Assembly: GCA_018402085.1 (NCBI GenBank) | Contig: JAGYJM010000002.1 | Span: 1,736,001-1,800,000, forward strand | DNA length: 64,000 nt | Direction of reading: 5' to 3' | Source: Flavobacteriales bacterium | GTDB lineage: Bacteria > Bacteroidota > Bacteroidia > Flavobacteriales_D > Sanyastnellaceae | In this document: piece after piece, positions 41,851 through 60,215 of the stretch | Layout: each line of letters begins with the position of its first letter | How positions within the stretch are numbered: the stretch's first letter is position 1 | Position numbers and translations under genes: made by a program | The notes under the pieces: model-generated | The model's input: the letters and a program-made list of their open reading frames with translations, nothing else | Database searches by the model: none | What the model was told of the DNA's origin: nothing

Positions 41851-43351
41851 ACTCACGCGTATCGCCTCCGGCTGCCTTCACCAGCATTCGTTCTGCTCCT
41901 TCTGAAGGAGAAAGCGTTTGAGAAGCGTATAGTCGATTGTCTGGTCGTATCATAAAAAAAGCAGGTACCGTTCGAAGGTCAAAGCTTCTTCGCAGACGCG
42001 GATCTGTACCCGCCTGTGCAAACATCCAGTCTTGACCGGGGTGTGTCGCCAGGTAATTTCGCATGGCATCAGGATCTTCATCCATCACGAGGGTCACAAA
42101 CCGAATCTGTCGTCCATGCCGACGATGTAAATCCTCTAAGAGCAGCAACTCACGCTGCGATGCAGCGCTTTCCAGGATCACCACTGACAAGTAAATGTGC
42201 GATCCCTCTAAGGTGCTTAAATTGACCCTTTCAGAGCGGTGATCGAGCAAGGTAATATCCGGCAAGAAATCATCTGAGTAAACGGTACCCTCTATGAGTT
42301 GTTCTTTCAATCGGCGAACCAACAGCTCTTGCTCTGGCTCTGCTTCGAGCTTATTCAGCATGCTGATGACCCCGTTGCGGTAGACCACATCTTCGTGCCA
42401 CAAGTTTCGGGCGGCAAGCAAAATCAAAGCATCCCGGCCTTCAGGGCGGCCATAAAGAGGATAATCCACCAGGGCATCCCTCGCTTTTGCGAGGTCACCG
42501 GTCTTAACCGCATTGAACAAAGCACTTACCTTCACGTCAGGATGCGACGTCATCAGCTTATGAACCGACTCAAAAAGCCGCACCGATTCGGGGTTCCACC
42601 ACTGGCAACCGTCTCTCGGAAGGTAAGCTGCCCAGACCTCATGCGGTGAGCGGCCAAGGCTGAGATCGAGCAGCCCGAGCGCAGCATTCAGCAAATGTGA
42701 CGTGCATGTGTCGGGGTGATGTATTAAAGGGGTGTTCAGAGATGTTTTGAGGTGAGTAAAGCGTGAATTCACGCTATCGATAAGGGCTCTTTTATCTGCC
42801 TTGGTAAGCGAATCACCCGATTCAGTGACCATATTGGTACTCAAGAGCTCTTCTTTGTGCATCGAACGAAAACCGCTAGATCCCGCACCAAAATACCGCG
42901 CCAGGTCGTAGGTGCTCTCGCCGATCACTTCAAGATAGCGCTGATTGAAATCAGCCAGGATCAAATTGGGGTCATCTTCAGGAGTATTCTTAATATAGAG
43001 CTCAAATGCATTCTCATTCAGTCGCTTTGCGACCGCATCTCCTGGTACATGCAGTTCGAGCTCGACCGTTTGTTCCGGGCGAATGAAAAGATCCGTTTGC
43101 CAGGCGCCCGAAACAATGGTGATCAACTCGGTGTGCAGCACATCTGCTTGAATACTGAAAGAACCATCTTCACCAATGGTCACCTGATCTTCAATGAACC
43201 AGCGTTCACTTAGATGATCATAATAGCGCAAGATGTAGAGCTCACGCCCCTCCAGGCCTTTGACAGTGCCGCGAATGATGCTTTGAGCCGCGAAGAACTC
43301 AGCGGGTAAGCTCAGACACAGGAATACGATCAGGAATAAACTGCGAGACAT
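41825..43351 (-). CDS. TlpA-like exported protein lacking the CxxC motif
   Basis: 508 residues. The signal peptide is LFLIVFLCLSLPAEFFA. A DUF4369-like beta domain lies near 25-110, followed by a helical middle. A C-terminal thioredoxin-like domain from about 360 runs: DFLPDITLLDHRSERVNLSTLEGSHIYLSVV. Where thioredoxins have WCxxC, this reads ILESAASQ, so it cannot do disulfide exchange and is probably structural or binding. Start overlaps coaD by 53 nt. One stem-loop copy is read in sense as L-A-K-A-R-D. Confidence 0.75.
   Translation of the reverse strand: MSRSLFLIVFLCLSLPAEFFAAQSIIRGTVKGLEGRELYILRYYDHLSERWFIEDQVTIGEDGSFSIQADVLHTELITIVSGAWQTDLFIRPEQTVELELHVPGDAVAKRLNENAFELYIKNTPEDDPNLILADFNQRYLEVIGESTYDLARYFGAGSSGFRSMHKEELLSTNMVTESGDSLTKADKRALIDSVNSRFTHLKTSLNTPLIHHPDTCTSHLLNAALGLLDLSLGRSPHEVWAAYLPRDGCQWWNPESVRLFESVHKLMTSHPDVKVSALFNAVKTGDLAKARDALVDYPLYGRPEGRDALILLAARNLWHEDVVYRNGVISMLNKLEAEPEQELLVRRLKEQLIEGTVYSDDFLPDITLLDHRSERVNLSTLEGSHIYLSVVILESAASQRELLLLEDLHRRHGRQIRFVTLVMDEDPDAMRNYLATHPGQDWMFAQAGTDPRLRRSFDLRTVPAFFMIRPDNRLYASQTLSPSEGAERMLVKAAGGDTREFNPWRDRQ
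42475..42494 (-). repeat. Stem-loop element copy 11 (inside TlpA-like gene)
   Basis: On the minus strand CCTCGC / AAAA / GCGAGG + GATG. It is read in sense by the host as L-A-K-A-R-D-A. Confidence 0.8.
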
Positions 43352-43769
43352 CTCCTTGGTTTCTCAGTATTTCACGAACAATCGTCGAATTTATTGCTGC
43401 ATATTCCGGGTCTGTGAACAAAATAACCGTCTCGAGGTGTGGTGCCATGTACTTGGTCATCTGCGCGATGGTGCGTTCATACTCAAAATCACCACCGTTT
43501 CTCACCCCCCTCAGCAGAAATGACGCCCCTACTTTCTTACAGTAATCAATGGTCAGACCCTCATAGTCATCTACGTCTACATTCGGCAAATCACTGAACA
43601 CATCAACGAGCCACGCGCGCCGTTGGTCGAGCGAAAACATGCTTTTCTTCGTAGAATTACTGCCAATGGCAATGGTGACATGATCGAAGAGTAAGCTTGC
43701 ACGGCGCACAATGTTCTCATGACCTTTCGTAATAGGATCAAACGACCCGGGAAAAACAGCTTTTCTCAT
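43299..43769 (-). CDS. coaD: Pantetheine-phosphate adenylyltransferase
   Basis: 156 residues. FPGSFDPITKGHENIVRRA at 6-24 carries the nucleotidyltransferase (T/H)xGH motif. RGVRNGGDFEYERTIAQMTKYM near 90 and NSTIVREI near 129 complete the CoaD set. It makes dephospho-CoA, the penultimate step of CoA synthesis. It overlaps rsmD by 4 nt, a pairing seen in many bacteria. Confidence 0.95.
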   Translation of the reverse strand: MRKAVFPGSFDPITKGHENIVRRASLLFDHVTIAIGSNSTKKSMFSLDQRRAWLVDVFSDLPNVDVDDYEGLTIDYCKKVGASFLLRGVRNGGDFEYERTIAQMTKYMAPHLETVILFTDPEYAAINSTIVREILRNQGDVSQFIPDRIPVSELTR

Positions 43770-44308
43770 GGCTTATCAAAGTTAAAAAAACTGAAGTGGA
43801 CGTGTCCGTACCTGCGGTAGTCATCAAACCCGTGCTGATCTTCAAACTGCAGATCCGGACCGTGTTCCAGAACGAGAACACCCTTTGGGGCAAGGATTCC
43901 GGTTTGGGCGATGAGGTGCGGCAGTTCGGGCAGCCCGGGGTGATCAAAAGGAGGGTCTGCAATAATGATATCGAATGATCCCGGCATTTTTGGCAGTATT
44001 TTAAACACGTCACCCTGAACCACCTGCACGCAGCCTGGCGCGAGCACCTCTGCACTCGTGCGAATGAAATGCACTGCCGCTCCTGTTTTCTCAATGGCCG
44101 TGACCCTTTTGGCGCCGTGACTGAGAAGTTCATAGGTCATAGCTCCTGTGCCTGCAAACAGATCAAGGCAGGTACTCCCTTCCATTTCTGCGCGAAAGCG
44201 CAGGATGTTAAACAGGCTCTCACGAGCGAAATCGGTCGTAGGCCGACCTTTGAATGACGCGGGTGGTTTAAAGCGTCGCCCCTTGAATTTACCACTTATG
44301 ATACGCAT
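43766..44308 (-). CDS. rsmD: 16S rRNA (guanine(966)-N(2))-methyltransferase
   Basis: 180 residues. MRIISGKFKGRRF start, RPTTDFARESLFNIL near 26, SAM-binding DLFAGTGAMTYELLSHGA near 49-66, and the catalytic DPPF near 118. It methylates G966 of 16S rRNA during 30S assembly. It overlaps coaD (4 nt) and DUF3822 (13 nt). One stem-loop copy in antisense encodes the I-L-R-F-R-A peptide after the first conserved helix. Confidence 0.94.
   Translation of the reverse strand: MRIISGKFKGRRFKPPASFKGRPTTDFARESLFNILRFRAEMEGSTCLDLFAGTGAMTYELLSHGAKRVTAIEKTGAAVHFIRTSAEVLAPGCVQVVQGDVFKILPKMPGSFDIIIADPPFDHPGLPELPHLIAQTGILAPKGVLVLEHGPDLQFEDQHGFDDYRRYGHVHFSFFNFDKP
44188..44207 (+). repeat. Stem-loop element copy 13 (inside rsmD)
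   Basis: CTGCGC / GAAA / GCGCAG + GATG. It is antisense to the host, which reads it as I-L-R-F-R-A. Confidence 0.8.
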
Positions 44309-45144
44309 CGGTACTGGTTGAGCAACGACATAAATGCCTGTTTGCGTAAAGCCCCTAGTGCCATCGTCACCTTAGGCATCTCAAACCCAAAGTGAATTTG
44401 AAGTTTCGGATAGTATTTTCGGAAGAGCTTAAAGCGCTCTCCGGCAATCTCAATACCTCCTGAAAGGTACAAGGTGGTTTCCTCCTGTGGCAGTCCGAGT
44501 GTGCTGAACACATTGCTCAATGCATACAAGGCGTCTGCGTCGCCTTCAATATCGTAGCGATTCACCAGTAGCAGCTCTTTATGGCCGGCCACACACACCT
44601 CTACAAAACTTTCTGATAGGTCAGCATAGACTTGCGGCGAACGATCAAAGCGGTTTCGACGCATCACAGCGTCAATAAGCAAGTGTGTATTCGCATACAC
44701 ACGTGCCGAAGGAAAGTACCTTAACACAAGCTCTTCCTCATCGGTGAGCGGGGTGTACAAAAGCACAGCTTTGATCACATCCACGGAGGTGTGGCGCACC
44801 TGAGCATCCTCATCGATGCAATGCGACAGAGATAATAGCCGCTGAGCGTTATCCGGCTGAAAAAGCCCCGATGGCACCAAAGTATAGGGAACCCCCCGAT
44901 GTGTGAGTGTCACGCCGTTAAAGGAGCCTTGACAATAGGGCCATTCACTAACAAATTTCTTAAGATCATGAACATGACCAAACCTGAGGGATCCCACTTC
45001 GAGAATGAGATCCTTATCGCTGTCAATCACAGCCCACTGAAAGGTATCGGGATCAAGCTGAAGACTCAGGTGCGCGCGACGCTGTTCGTCAAGAGTGAGC
45101 GTGTGATCCTTCAGGCAGAATACGGTATCATTTCCAGTTACCAT
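44296..45144 (-). CDS. DUF3822 family protein
   Basis: 282 residues. The sequence fits DUF3822, a Bacteroidota family with an actin/hexokinase-like fold: LSLQLDPDTFQWAVID at the N-terminus, then YADLSESFVEVCVAGHKELLLVNRY near 180 and LYLSGGI near 233 in positions like the phosphate loops. Function unknown. In this phylum it commonly precedes rsmD and coaD as here. It overlaps both neighbours, so it is in one operon from 46006 to 41825. Confidence 0.85.
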   Translation of the reverse strand: MVTGNDTVFCLKDHTLTLDEQRRAHLSLQLDPDTFQWAVIDSDKDLILEVGSLRFGHVHDLKKFVSEWPYCQGSFNGVTLTHRGVPYTLVPSGLFQPDNAQRLLSLSHCIDEDAQVRHTSVDVIKAVLLYTPLTDEEELVLRYFPSARVYANTHLLIDAVMRRNRFDRSPQVYADLSESFVEVCVAGHKELLLVNRYDIEGDADALYALSNVFSTLGLPQEETTLYLSGGIEIAGERFKLFRKYYPKLQIHFGFEMPKVTMALGALRKQAFMSLLNQYRCVS

Positions 45145-46006
45145 CTGTATGCGGTTCAGTGAGTGAACCGAAGCGGAGGGTGTCTTTTTTCACCTTATCA
45201 CGACCGAAGGGATGCGGATCTTGCACAAGAATCGTGGGTTGTTTGACCCCGCCTTGTTCAACGAAGTCTGTTTTCACAATAAAACGTCCTCCTTTGAACG
45301 GTGCGAAAGGCAGTGAATCGAGGTAAACCGGCGGCAGCTTTTTCTCTTTGCGGGCTACCGAAGTGAAGTTCTCCGCATAAAAAGAAGTGTACAGCGTGTC
45401 AATGATTTTGTATGCGGTTCGGTTCTGGTCAATATCTTCAAGAAAAACCTTGGCATCATAGCCGAGCATCGCAGCTACAGAATCTACCTCATTCCGGCGC
45501 AGCACATACCCCTTGTCGTAATAGTCCACTTCACTGAGGCTGTCGTGAAACGTTCCCATTTTAAAAGGAATAGGCACTACATCTTTCTTGATCCAAGAAA
45601 GCAGGGTGTCGAAGTTTTCAGTGTACTTGCCATTGAAGTCTGCGAAGGCTTCCTGCGCATCGCGAATATCTTTTAAGCGCTGAATTGTACGTGCCTCAAT
45701 GCGGGATTTTTGCTCCTGAAAGTCGATTTCACTCGTTATTGACTCCACTAATACGTAAGCGAGTGCTGCAGAAAATAAGACACCCAGCACCATCAGAACC
45801 TGGCTCAATGAGCTGCCGAATTTACCCATAACAGGAGGCGCGATCAGGATTCCCACCACAACCAGGGTGATGGAGGCGATCAACATTTCAGTGGGTTGAC
45901 TCTCGAGTTCATCGCTCCCGAGGTACTTGGCAAGGAAGAAAAAGCCGAGAGCGACCAGAAGAATTGTGATAACGTACTGTCCTATTGACTTGGTGAACTT
46001 TTCCAT
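45128..46006 (-). CDS. Conserved membrane protein, unknown function
   Basis: 292 residues. Three hydrophobic segments lie in the first 95 (VITILLVALGFFFLA; MLIASITLVVVGILIAPPV; VLMVLGVLFSAALAYVLV). A helical soluble part follows (RLKDIRDAQEAFADFNGKYTENFDTLLSWI) that looks like the pilin-like fragment of secretion proteins, and then a beta-rich end. I do not recognise a named family. It overlaps DUF3822 by 17 nt and heads the operon. Confidence 0.7.
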   Translation of the reverse strand: MEKFTKSIGQYVITILLVALGFFFLAKYLGSDELESQPTEMLIASITLVVVGILIAPPVMGKFGSSLSQVLMVLGVLFSAALAYVLVESITSEIDFQEQKSRIEARTIQRLKDIRDAQEAFADFNGKYTENFDTLLSWIKKDVVPIPFKMGTFHDSLSEVDYYDKGYVLRRNEVDSVAAMLGYDAKVFLEDIDQNRTAYKIIDTLYTSFYAENFTSVARKEKKLPPVYLDSLPFAPFKGGRFIVKTDFVEQGGVKQPTILVQDPHPFGRDKVKKDTLRFGSLTEPHTDGNWK

Positions 46007-46129
46007 ACGGCAGTATTAAGTGCGTTTTGCAGGTACAAAGCCCGACAAACTTACAACATTTTGTATTTCCTGAACGCCAGGATCAGACAAGATAGCTTCT
46101 AAGGCTGTACAAGGTTTCTGCAATTATTT

Positions 46130-46330
46130 CAATCAGCGGTATGCAGAAAAATGACCCACGGGTGTGACCTCCGGTTGCAAGCGCCGTCAAAAGGGTGGTC
46201 ACTCAGCACAGTGGCTGACTGAATGCCAGTGTATTTCAACCGGATCAACTGCGGCAGGGAATGTGGCTATGTAAAAGATCTGCTGCCTGGAGAGACCAGC
46301 AGACGCCCTGCCGCTCCGGTTGGAAACCAT
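46130..46330. ncRNA. Candidate structured RNA, class unknown
   Basis: The gap 46007-46414 has no ORF worth calling. Within it is a long folded segment. Two perfect stems stack: 46237-46244 with 46315-46322 (8 bp) and 46251-46259 with 46306-46314 (9 bp), separated only by a 6-nt bulge on the left. A 6-bp apical stem (46280-46285 with 46297-46302) lies inside. A separate 6-bp stem pairs 46164-46169 with 46197-46202. It lacks the RNase P, SRP, tmRNA and TPP signatures. Strand is undecided: it could lie upstream of ndk or upstream of the divergent 46006 operon. Confidence 0.5.
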
Positions 46331-46377
46331 TGCTAACAGAATTGAGTGCTGTTCCTGTTATTCGTTTATTTTAATTG

Positions 46378-46385
46378 TACTTTTG
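46378..46385 (+). promoter_or_regulatory. -7 promoter box of ndk
   Basis: TACTTTTG followed by C, full match to TAnnTTTG. The predicted start is near 46392, 23 nt before the ndk ATG. Confidence 0.55.
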
Positions 46386-46414: not shown

Positions 46415-46834
46415 ATGGCTGGTACCAAGACATTCACCATGATCAAACCTGACGCCACAGGCGCAGGTCACACAGGCAAAATCATTGACCGAATCATTGG
46501 CGCAGGATTCTCCCTCAAAGCAATGAAACTGACCCAACTTACCCGAGAAGACGCAGAATCGTTTTATGCCGTTCACCGCGAACGTCCGTTCTTCGGAGAA
46601 CTGGTGGAGTACATGACCTCTGGTCCGATTGTAGCTGCAATCCTCGAAAAAGATAACGCGGTTGAAGACTTCCGCACCCTGATTGGAGCCACCAACCCGG
46701 CTGAAGCCGCTGAAGGCACTATTCGCAAAGAATTTGCAGAATCGATTGCTGCCAATGCAGTGCACGGTTCTGACAGCGATGAGAACGCTGCCATTGAAGG
46801 CGCATTCTTCTTCAGCACCCGAGAGACGGTGTAA
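46415..46834 (+). CDS. ndk: Nucleoside diphosphate kinase
   Basis: 139 residues from [19 protein letters not shown]; the ATG at 46346 lies upstream of the promoter box. Conserved NDK elements: TMIKPDA at 8-14, [16 protein letters not shown] near 55-70, RTLIGATNP near 88, and the active-site His in NAVHGSDS near 116. It equalises NTP and dNTP pools. It is single and ended by a terminator. Confidence 0.97.
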
Positions 46835-59808: not shown

Positions 59809-60210
59809 GGGGCTGAACTGGCTTTGACAGCGAGATGAATGGCTGAGCAAGCACGTCGAGGGTTTCGTGTTTTACCTCGTTAAACACAGGGCACAAGTCA
59901 GAAATGACAACACTTCTTACGCACTCGCAGCGTAATCAGGTCTCAGACCGATACGCCTAATTCCAGCCCTCAATAGGGCGGAACGAGTTGTCCGGTATGC
60001 AGGTTATGTTCCTATCCTGTATGCAATCGGGCATCGAACAAATGGAACTAGCGAAGTGCGGGTCTGACGCGCTTAGCGAAAATAATCCAGACTAAGCTTG
60101 AGCTTGGAATGCCGTATTCCGTACTCAGGTCGAAAATTAATTTACGGATAAGCGTGTAGAAACCTTAGAGATTCCTCGTTTGGACGCGGGTTCGACTCCC
60201 GCCAGCTCCA
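59809..60210 (+). ncRNA. ssrA: tmRNA
   Basis: 402 nt. The 5' end GGGGCTG pairs with the 3' CAGCTCC to form the tRNA-like acceptor. The T-arm GGTTCGACTCCC is intact. CCA is not encoded beyond the discriminator A. The tag frame before its stop reads NDNTSYALAA, using AAT GAC AAC ACT TCT TAC GCA CTC GCA GCG TAA (from 59905). Aligned with E. coli the resume codon would be AGA, one codon earlier, giving RNDNTSYALAA; this call is by alignment only. It rescues stalled ribosomes and marks the product for ClpXP-type proteolysis. Confidence 0.95.
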
Positions 60211-60215
60211 CTATC

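Follow-up and report, generated by a model that had tools for sequence, protein, structure and literature searches.

A conserved hairpin RNA upstream of ndk in one family of Flavobacteriales, a candidate ECF-dependent small RNA directed at the mRNA of its own sigma factor

The gap upstream of ndk and its hairpin

The DNA analysed, hereafter the window, is a stretch of 64,000 nucleotides (G000:C2:1736001-1800000) of the 3.78 Mb genome of a Flavobacteriales bacterium, named G000 in the comparisons below. In the window, the gene ndk, for nucleoside diphosphate kinase, faces a divergent cluster on the minus strand (43299-46006), which encodes a 292-aa protein with no family at the cut-off, a DUF3822 protein, a PF03602 (RsmD-like) methyltransferase and a CoaD-like cytidylyltransferase. 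The gap between them measures 409 nt, from the minus-strand ORF at 45128-46006 to the ATG of ndk at 46416, one more than the 408 bp reported by an earlier inspection of the letters alone (the sequence-only reading). The only Rfam match at gathering level in the whole window is a tmRNA at 59809-60213 (RF00023, 139.6 bits), which was missed by ARAGORN. The features of the gap and of its ndk side are the following:

46046..46053, minus strand: TAAGTTTG, -7 box of the putative divergent promoter, invariant in a four-genome alignment
46163..46169, plus strand: TGTGACC, -35 element of a candidate ECF-sigma-type promoter (TGTGACY-N15-CGTC in 10 of the 13 genomes with the RNA)
46185..46188, plus strand: CGTC, -10 element of the same promoter; start of transcription expected at about 46194-46196
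46195..46340, plus strand: putative sRNA of about 130-145 nt, a conserved block in 13 genomes; both ends approximate
46237-46244 with 46315-46322, plus strand: CAACCGGA with TCCGGTTG, outer helix of P1, 8 bp; other sequences form it in the relatives
46245-46250, plus strand: TCAACT, one-sided bulge of 6 nt
46251-46259 with 46306-46314, plus strand: GCGGCAGGG with CCCTGCCGC, inner helix of P1, 9 bp, with covariation
46263..46268, plus strand: GUGGCU, invariant and complementary to sigma leaders, proposed seed against the sigma-factor mRNA
46278..46303, plus strand: apical hairpin P3, with the 7-nt loop UGGAGAG at 46288-46294 (consensus KGGAGAG)
46378..46385, plus strand: TACTTTTG, -7 box (TAnnTTTG) of the putative promoter of ndk itself, downstream of the RNA
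46416..46834, plus strand: ndk, a neighbour outside the RNA

The stem of 8 + 9 bp with its one-sided 6-nt bulge is present where the sequence-only reading had placed it, and the apical stem was confirmed as well (TCTGCTG at 46279-46285 with CAGCAGA at 46297-46303, 6-7 bp). The hairpin at 46227-46335 is predicted to fold with -47.1 kcal/mol, against a mean of -31.1 for shuffled sequences (z -4.57), and none of 200 shuffles was as stable. The full 211-nt segment is less extreme, with z -2.39 on the plus strand and z -2.76 on the opposite one; since both strands fold about equally well, the strand is not given by thermodynamics alone. The segment is also richer in G+C, as had been noticed, with 0.49-0.55 against 0.37-0.43 in the immediate flanks. 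The separate 6-bp 5' stem of the same reading did not hold, as its best candidate, GTGACC at 46164-46169 with GGTCAC at 46197-46202, overlaps the conserved -35 element, so that its 5' arm would lie upstream of the expected start and probably outside the RNA. A switch-like arrangement, in which TCCGGTTG at 46170-46177 pairs alternatively with CAACCGGA, was rejected because positions 46170-46177 are the promoter spacer.

In the predicted fold of the window the internal loop is one-sided, with about 19 nt on one strand and 2 on the other. No U-run follows the hairpin in the window, nor in G008, G017, G034 and G080; at least four T were found by eye directly 3' of the hairpin, or within 1-2 bases of it, in 8 of the 13 genomes (G001, G002, G003, G007, G013, G026, G027 and G032). 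A reading of the hairpin as the intrinsic terminator of a gene was rejected, since the upstream gene is on the opposite strand.

Conservation, covariation and spread of the RNA

On comparative grounds, we have little doubt that the gap contains a conserved RNA gene. When the ndk upstream regions of G000, G001, G002 and G003 were aligned, they shared a conserved block containing TGTGACC, CGTC, GTGGCTAT and GGAGAG; the hairpin motif was next recognised in G013 and G032, and then in G027 and G008. As the 5' arm of P1 was put out of place when MAFFT aligned the core without adjustment, the core alignments (A4, with 8 genomes, and A5, with 10) were padded with N to hold the register. In A5, made by hand with the structure in mind, which favours that structure, and covering 10 of the 13 genomes (G017, G026 and G080 were left out), the 21 pairs give 188 cells, 86.2% of which hold standard pairs against 64.6 in shuffles. 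Changes on both sides occur in 17 of the 21 pairs, for a total of 40 cells, against 13.7 cells in the shuffles, with 0 of 500 reaching 40, and at most 10 double-change cells were left when the partner was slid by 1-3 columns. Both-sided changes touch 8 of the 9 pairs of the inner helix of P1 and 9 of the 12 pairs of P3 in these 10 genomes, and the outer helix forms across the folds with sequences that differ between genomes. Comparative folding in relatives, one of the checks named by the sequence-only reading, brought out compensatory changes in the helices.

Model R1 recovered the RNA in G007 and G026, both outside its building set, and gave a weak match in G034 (23.4 bits, E 0.044). Model R2 recovered G017, G026 and G080, all of them outside its own building set. 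Over the family of the window, R2 matched 13 of 114 genomes, in 6 of 21 genera, with one match per genome, a pattern for which a repeat or mobile element was rejected. All the matches were in this same family also over the order (at least 11 of 245 genomes, among the best 20 candidates per listed genome) and over the class (at least 3 of 396, among the best 12 candidates per listed genome), under strict filters that may miss weak relatives. By DNA similarity, the whole gap compared with 60 genomes returned its own copy and only two 28-nt matches around the ndk promoter box. The search of Rfam (release 15) gave no match in the gap, in line with the lack of known RNA motifs noted before, and nothing over gathering in the loci of 12 other genomes, of which 6 were scanned permissively and 6 at gathering; the permissive scans returned a chance snoRNA match in the gap and sub-threshold matches elsewhere in the loci. 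The proposal of a structured, lineage-specific RNA was right, as indicated by the covariation, the conserved block and the matches limited to one family.

Two loop sequences are invariant in the 10 aligned genomes, GUGGCU, which by eye is present in the other three too, and GGAGAG. Folds were predicted for 8 of the 13 genomes. Seven of them leave GGAGAG almost entirely single-stranded, and the eighth, that of the window, pairs part of it; GUGGCU is variably exposed, being largely paired in G003 and partly in others.

A putative ECF-type promoter and its motif elsewhere

The motif TGTGACY-N15-CGTC upstream of the RNA begins 85-97 nt before the RNA core in the seven genomes measured. According to the excerpted text of PMC9723704, the ECF promoters of F. 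psychrophilum characteristically carry CGT in their -10 region, and we consider it very likely, from the motif and its distribution, that the RNA is under the control of an ECF-type promoter. As this conserved promoter points along the plus strand, the suggestion that the gap holds a leader of the divergent operon is wrong-stranded. The three genomes of genus g12 (G013, G032 and G080) keep the RNA upstream of ndk without an ECF-type promoter, the motif being absent there, and in G013 and G032 part of GUGGCU is taken up in an additional small hairpin within the internal loop.

In the 10 RNA-bearing genomes with the promoter, the motif was found at 54 sites against 23 for a reversed control; the motif had been defined from 10 of these sites, the promoters of the RNA itself, and 44 are left without them. 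In G000 alone the strict motif is not enriched (3 sites against 3 in the control), and its sites precede the RNA and a coiled-coil gene or, in one case, lie inside an ORF. A looser form (N14 or N15, any base after TGTGAC) has 12 sites in G000, and its control 17; five of the 12 sites fall between genes, including those of the RNA, of an ECF sigma gene (N14), of the coiled-coil gene and of one secreted-protein gene.

The downstream genes were read at 28 of the 54 sites and at two G000 loci. An ECF sigma gene lies exactly 27 nt downstream of the motif in G001, G002, G017 and G034, and secreted proteins that by eye are coiled-coil-like follow it in G000, G002, G017 and G034, with no Pfam match for the one of G000. 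Other genes bearing the motif encode MscL (mscL, G017), an outer-membrane barrel protein (G008), an M48 peptidase (G027) and a zinc peptidase (G003), and several other sites examined are within ORFs or ahead of unrelated genes.

In 10 of the 29 family genomes without the sigma gene, not matched in size and composition, 4 sites were found against 8 in the control, and in G043, also without a sigma ortholog, 0 against 3. In G053 and G059, two genomes outside the family that have the sigma gene, the figures are 3 against 1 each; one of the G053 sites belongs to an mscL-like gene, and one of those of G059 to a coiled-coil-like gene. In this comparison the motif thus goes with the ECF sigma.

The candidate sigma factor

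In G000, the sigma gene runs from G000:C2:2173873 to about 2174322-2174375, apparently starts with UUG and is preceded by the motif (14-nt spacer). Sigma-70 regions 2 and 4 were recognised in its protein, which reaches the cut-off of TIGR02937 and of none of the more specific models listed. Genes for MscS-type channels follow on its 3' side, an arrangement found also outside the family, in G053.

With the first 150 residues of the G002 sigma protein as the query, clear orthologs were detected in 10 of 60 genomes (E 4e-49 or better, 53-100% identity), eight of them in the family (G000, G001, G002, G007, G008, G017, G027 and G034) and two outside (G053 and G059); the next matches were at 6.5e-32 (a second gene of G008), 5.8e-25 (G039), and 5e-18 and weaker. 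All the 10 orthologs have the motif upstream with N14 or N15, with one mismatch by eye in G007, and at 8 of the 10 loci the next gene is MscS-type-channel-like, with Pfam run on one protein of G000 and one of G002. The open reading frame is not full length in G017, where it runs into channel-gene-like sequence, nor in G059, where it has an in-frame stop, which could reflect assembly errors or decay.

The RNA is present in 8 of 8 family genomes with the sigma gene and in 4 of 29 without it (Fisher 1.3e-5, a test that ignores relatedness). The four are G003, G013, G026 and G032; in G003 and G026, which are draft genomes, the RNA has its promoter and a sigma ortholog was not detected.

Complementarity between the RNA and the sigma leader

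The sigma leader measures 27-31 nt between the CGTC box and the UUG start, the latter deduced from conserved N-termini, and the 5' UTR of the mRNA would therefore be perhaps 20-25 nt long. Just before the start, the leader is complementary to the invariant GUGGCU. UAGCC or GCCAC was found in 7 of the 7 sigma leaders tested and in 17 of 495 background leaders, which were taken from ATG-started ORFs of at least 150 aa and, coming in many cases from related ndk neighbourhoods, are neither independent nor genome-wide. The sigma leader of G002 was left out of this comparison as it is one base from that of G001. By eye, neither UAGCC nor GCCAC is present in the sigma leaders of G053 and G059, genomes in which no match to the RNA was found.

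The contiguous complement is 9 bp long in G001 and G002, 10 bp in G008 and G027 and 10 bp in G034, where it is shifted (GGCUAUAGUU), 7 bp in G017, 6 bp in G000 (7 with one G-U) and 6 bp in G007. When compared by length with 2,000 mononucleotide-shuffled leaders, p was at most 0.017 in 5 of 7 cases, 0.09 in G000 and 0.10 in G007; judged by energy, the pairing of G007 had p 0.57. Among the 495 background leaders, those matching as long were 1 for G001, none for G008, G027 and G034, 21 for G017, 51 for G000 and 44 for G007. The pairs of RNA and leader from the same genome averaged 8.3 bp and -16.5 kcal/mol, against 7.0 bp and -13.9 kcal/mol for cross-genus pairs. As the own pairs are only slightly better, what these data describe is a conserved complementarity, and coevolution is suggested rather than proven. 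We think it fairly probable, from this complementarity, that GUGGCU pairs with the sigma mRNA; feedback on the sigma would follow as an inference, weak in the genome of the window itself.

Alternative explanations

The same ECF-dependent sRNA could have the mRNAs of envelope proteins as its main targets, reached through KGGAGAG, with GUGGCU serving the structure or a protein and the match in the sigma leader being incidental or secondary. The invariant GGAGAG is unpaired more consistently than GUGGCU (7 of 8 folds), the RNA persists in genus g12, in which G013 and G032 are without the sigma, and in G002 one of the secreted-protein genes with the motif has CUCUCCC in its leader; however, the similar leader of G027 showed no CUCUCC match, and a complement of GUGGC or GGCUA is present in all the 7 sigma leaders tested, against 17 of the 495 background leaders. 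We regard this explanation as rather unlikely. Also, an RNA that is real and ECF-controlled could act without base pairing, by encoding a small peptide or by binding a protein, for which the invariant loop sequences would be a suitable site, but the compensatory changes in the helices are those of a structured rather than a coding RNA, and we regard this reading as very unlikely.

The position of the RNA, on the same strand upstream of ndk in 11 of the 13 genomes (in G080 by eye), together with the attenuator-like U-run after the hairpin in 8 of 13, would suit a cis-acting leader, attenuator or riboswitch of ndk, and a riboregulator of ndk had indeed been among the proposals of the sequence-only reading. 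Yet a TAnnTTTG box separates the RNA from ndk in 8 of the 11 genomes, the three g12 genomes having no match to the pattern, and in G007 and G026 the gene 3' of the RNA is not ndk but a permease-like gene, the RNA of G007 lying about 9 kb from ndk; the permease-like gene has a sub-threshold match to the MacB periplasmic domain and is probably an ABC permease. With a separate promoter box for ndk and the RNA placed elsewhere in two genomes, the RNA does not appear to be the leader of ndk, a role that we consider highly improbable. A 6S-type RNA, sequestering RNA polymerase, was another of the proposals, and the length, the long interrupted hairpin and the free-standing gene agree with it. In 6S RNA an open central bubble mimics a promoter; here the internal loop is one-sided, the promoter is of the stress type, the loop sequences are invariant and the RNA is patchy, being found in only 13 of 114 family genomes. 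No match to the 6S or 6S-Flavo families of Rfam was obtained, with RF01685 giving 0 matches in the own genome in a search whose controls were silent too. The 6S proposal is, on this evidence, barely plausible.

A model for the ECF-dependent sRNA

The explanation that we favour, at roughly two chances in three and from comparison of genomes, is that of an ECF-dependent, trans-acting sRNA that feeds back on its own sigma factor. A stand-alone sRNA of roughly 140 nt would be transcribed on the plus strand from the ECF-sigma promoter at 46163-46188. Its fold would be a single long hairpin with interruptions; of its two invariant elements, GUGGCU is in the region of the internal loop and KGGAGAG at the apex. 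We infer that the responsible sigma is the ECF factor at G000:C2:2173873-2174322, which has an MscS-type channel gene next to it. Membrane or envelope stress, possibly osmotic, would activate this sigma, which would then transcribe the sRNA along with its own operon and other envelope genes; the GUGGCU of the sRNA would pair immediately before the UUG of the sigma mRNA, and the pairing could block translation of the sigma or promote decay of its mRNA, so that the response is damped. The KGGAGAG loop would probably be used for other targets or for a protein.

Membrane tension or osmotic stress is suggested as the signal because channel genes adjoin the sigma gene, and the motif is also present before mscL in G017 and, by resemblance, in G053. 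For the whole chain as a one-step autoregulatory loop, in which a membrane-tension ECF sigma drives an sRNA that acts on the sigma's own start site, in a new RNA family of a branch of Bacteroidota, we would give even odds. The regulon of the sigma and the channels would seem to be older and the sRNA a later addition, as G053 and G059, of a related family, have this regulon with neither the sRNA nor the target site detected. Since the promoter, the candidate sigma, the seed and the target site are all supplied, the feedback loop can be tested directly.

Comparison with known systems

Envelope-stress regulons with a noncoding arm have been described in Proteobacteria and Fusobacteria. In Enterobacteria, the sigmaE-dependent sRNAs MicA, RybB and MicL form the noncoding arm of the envelope-stress ECF regulon and dampen the response; MicA and RybB act on porins, and these sRNAs use a 5' seed and Hfq. 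What the RNA of the window would have in common with them is the proposed role as the noncoding arm of such a regulon and the damping of the response, with no relation of sequence or structure claimed; it differs in its proposed seeds, which are in an internal and an apical loop, and in its proposed target, the sigma mRNA.

FoxI and FoxJ of Fusobacterium nucleatum, which are not Proteobacterial, are described in the excerpted text of PMC11005410 as sigmaE-dependent sRNAs whose overexpression lowers rpoE. FoxJ, of about 156 nt, was first misannotated as the 5' UTR of the next gene; both differ from the RNA of the window in having C-rich seeds and the porin target fomA, and in belonging to another phylum (PMC11005410, same excerpts). 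StsR of Rhodobacter sphaeroides, according to the excerpts of PMC8307010, pairs near the start codon of the mRNA of the ECF sigma rpoE in a negative feedback; it differs in being transcribed by RpoHI/RpoHII, which makes the loop indirect, in its length of 72 nt, and in a pairing that begins 10 nt downstream of the start codon.

In the Bacteroidota open-access literature, as represented by excerpts, no sRNA is reported to repress its own ECF sigma, and the nearest case is a predicted anti-sigma target (PMC10861873). This is BTnc353 of Bacteroides thetaiotaomicron, with computationally predicted targets in a mechanosensitive-channel gene and in the anti-sigma gene of an ECF operon, and proposed by its authors, in the same excerpts, as a putative regulator of the ECF system (PMC10861873). 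Its targets are predicted only, with the anti-sigma and not the sigma among them, and the likeness to the RNA of the window is one of description. Rfp18 and other sRNAs of F. psychrophilum are structured, and Rfp18 is conserved in the genus and tied to proteases, as given in the excerpted text of PMC9723704, where the ECF-type promoter motif SM6 of this organism has a CGT box at -10. Rfp18 is likened to the RNA of the window by description only, the matches of R2 being confined to the window's family. Set beside these systems, the RNA near ndk is a putative small regulatory RNA not described before, and it would illustrate how what looks like the 'leader' of a housekeeping gene may turn out to be a stress gene in its own right.
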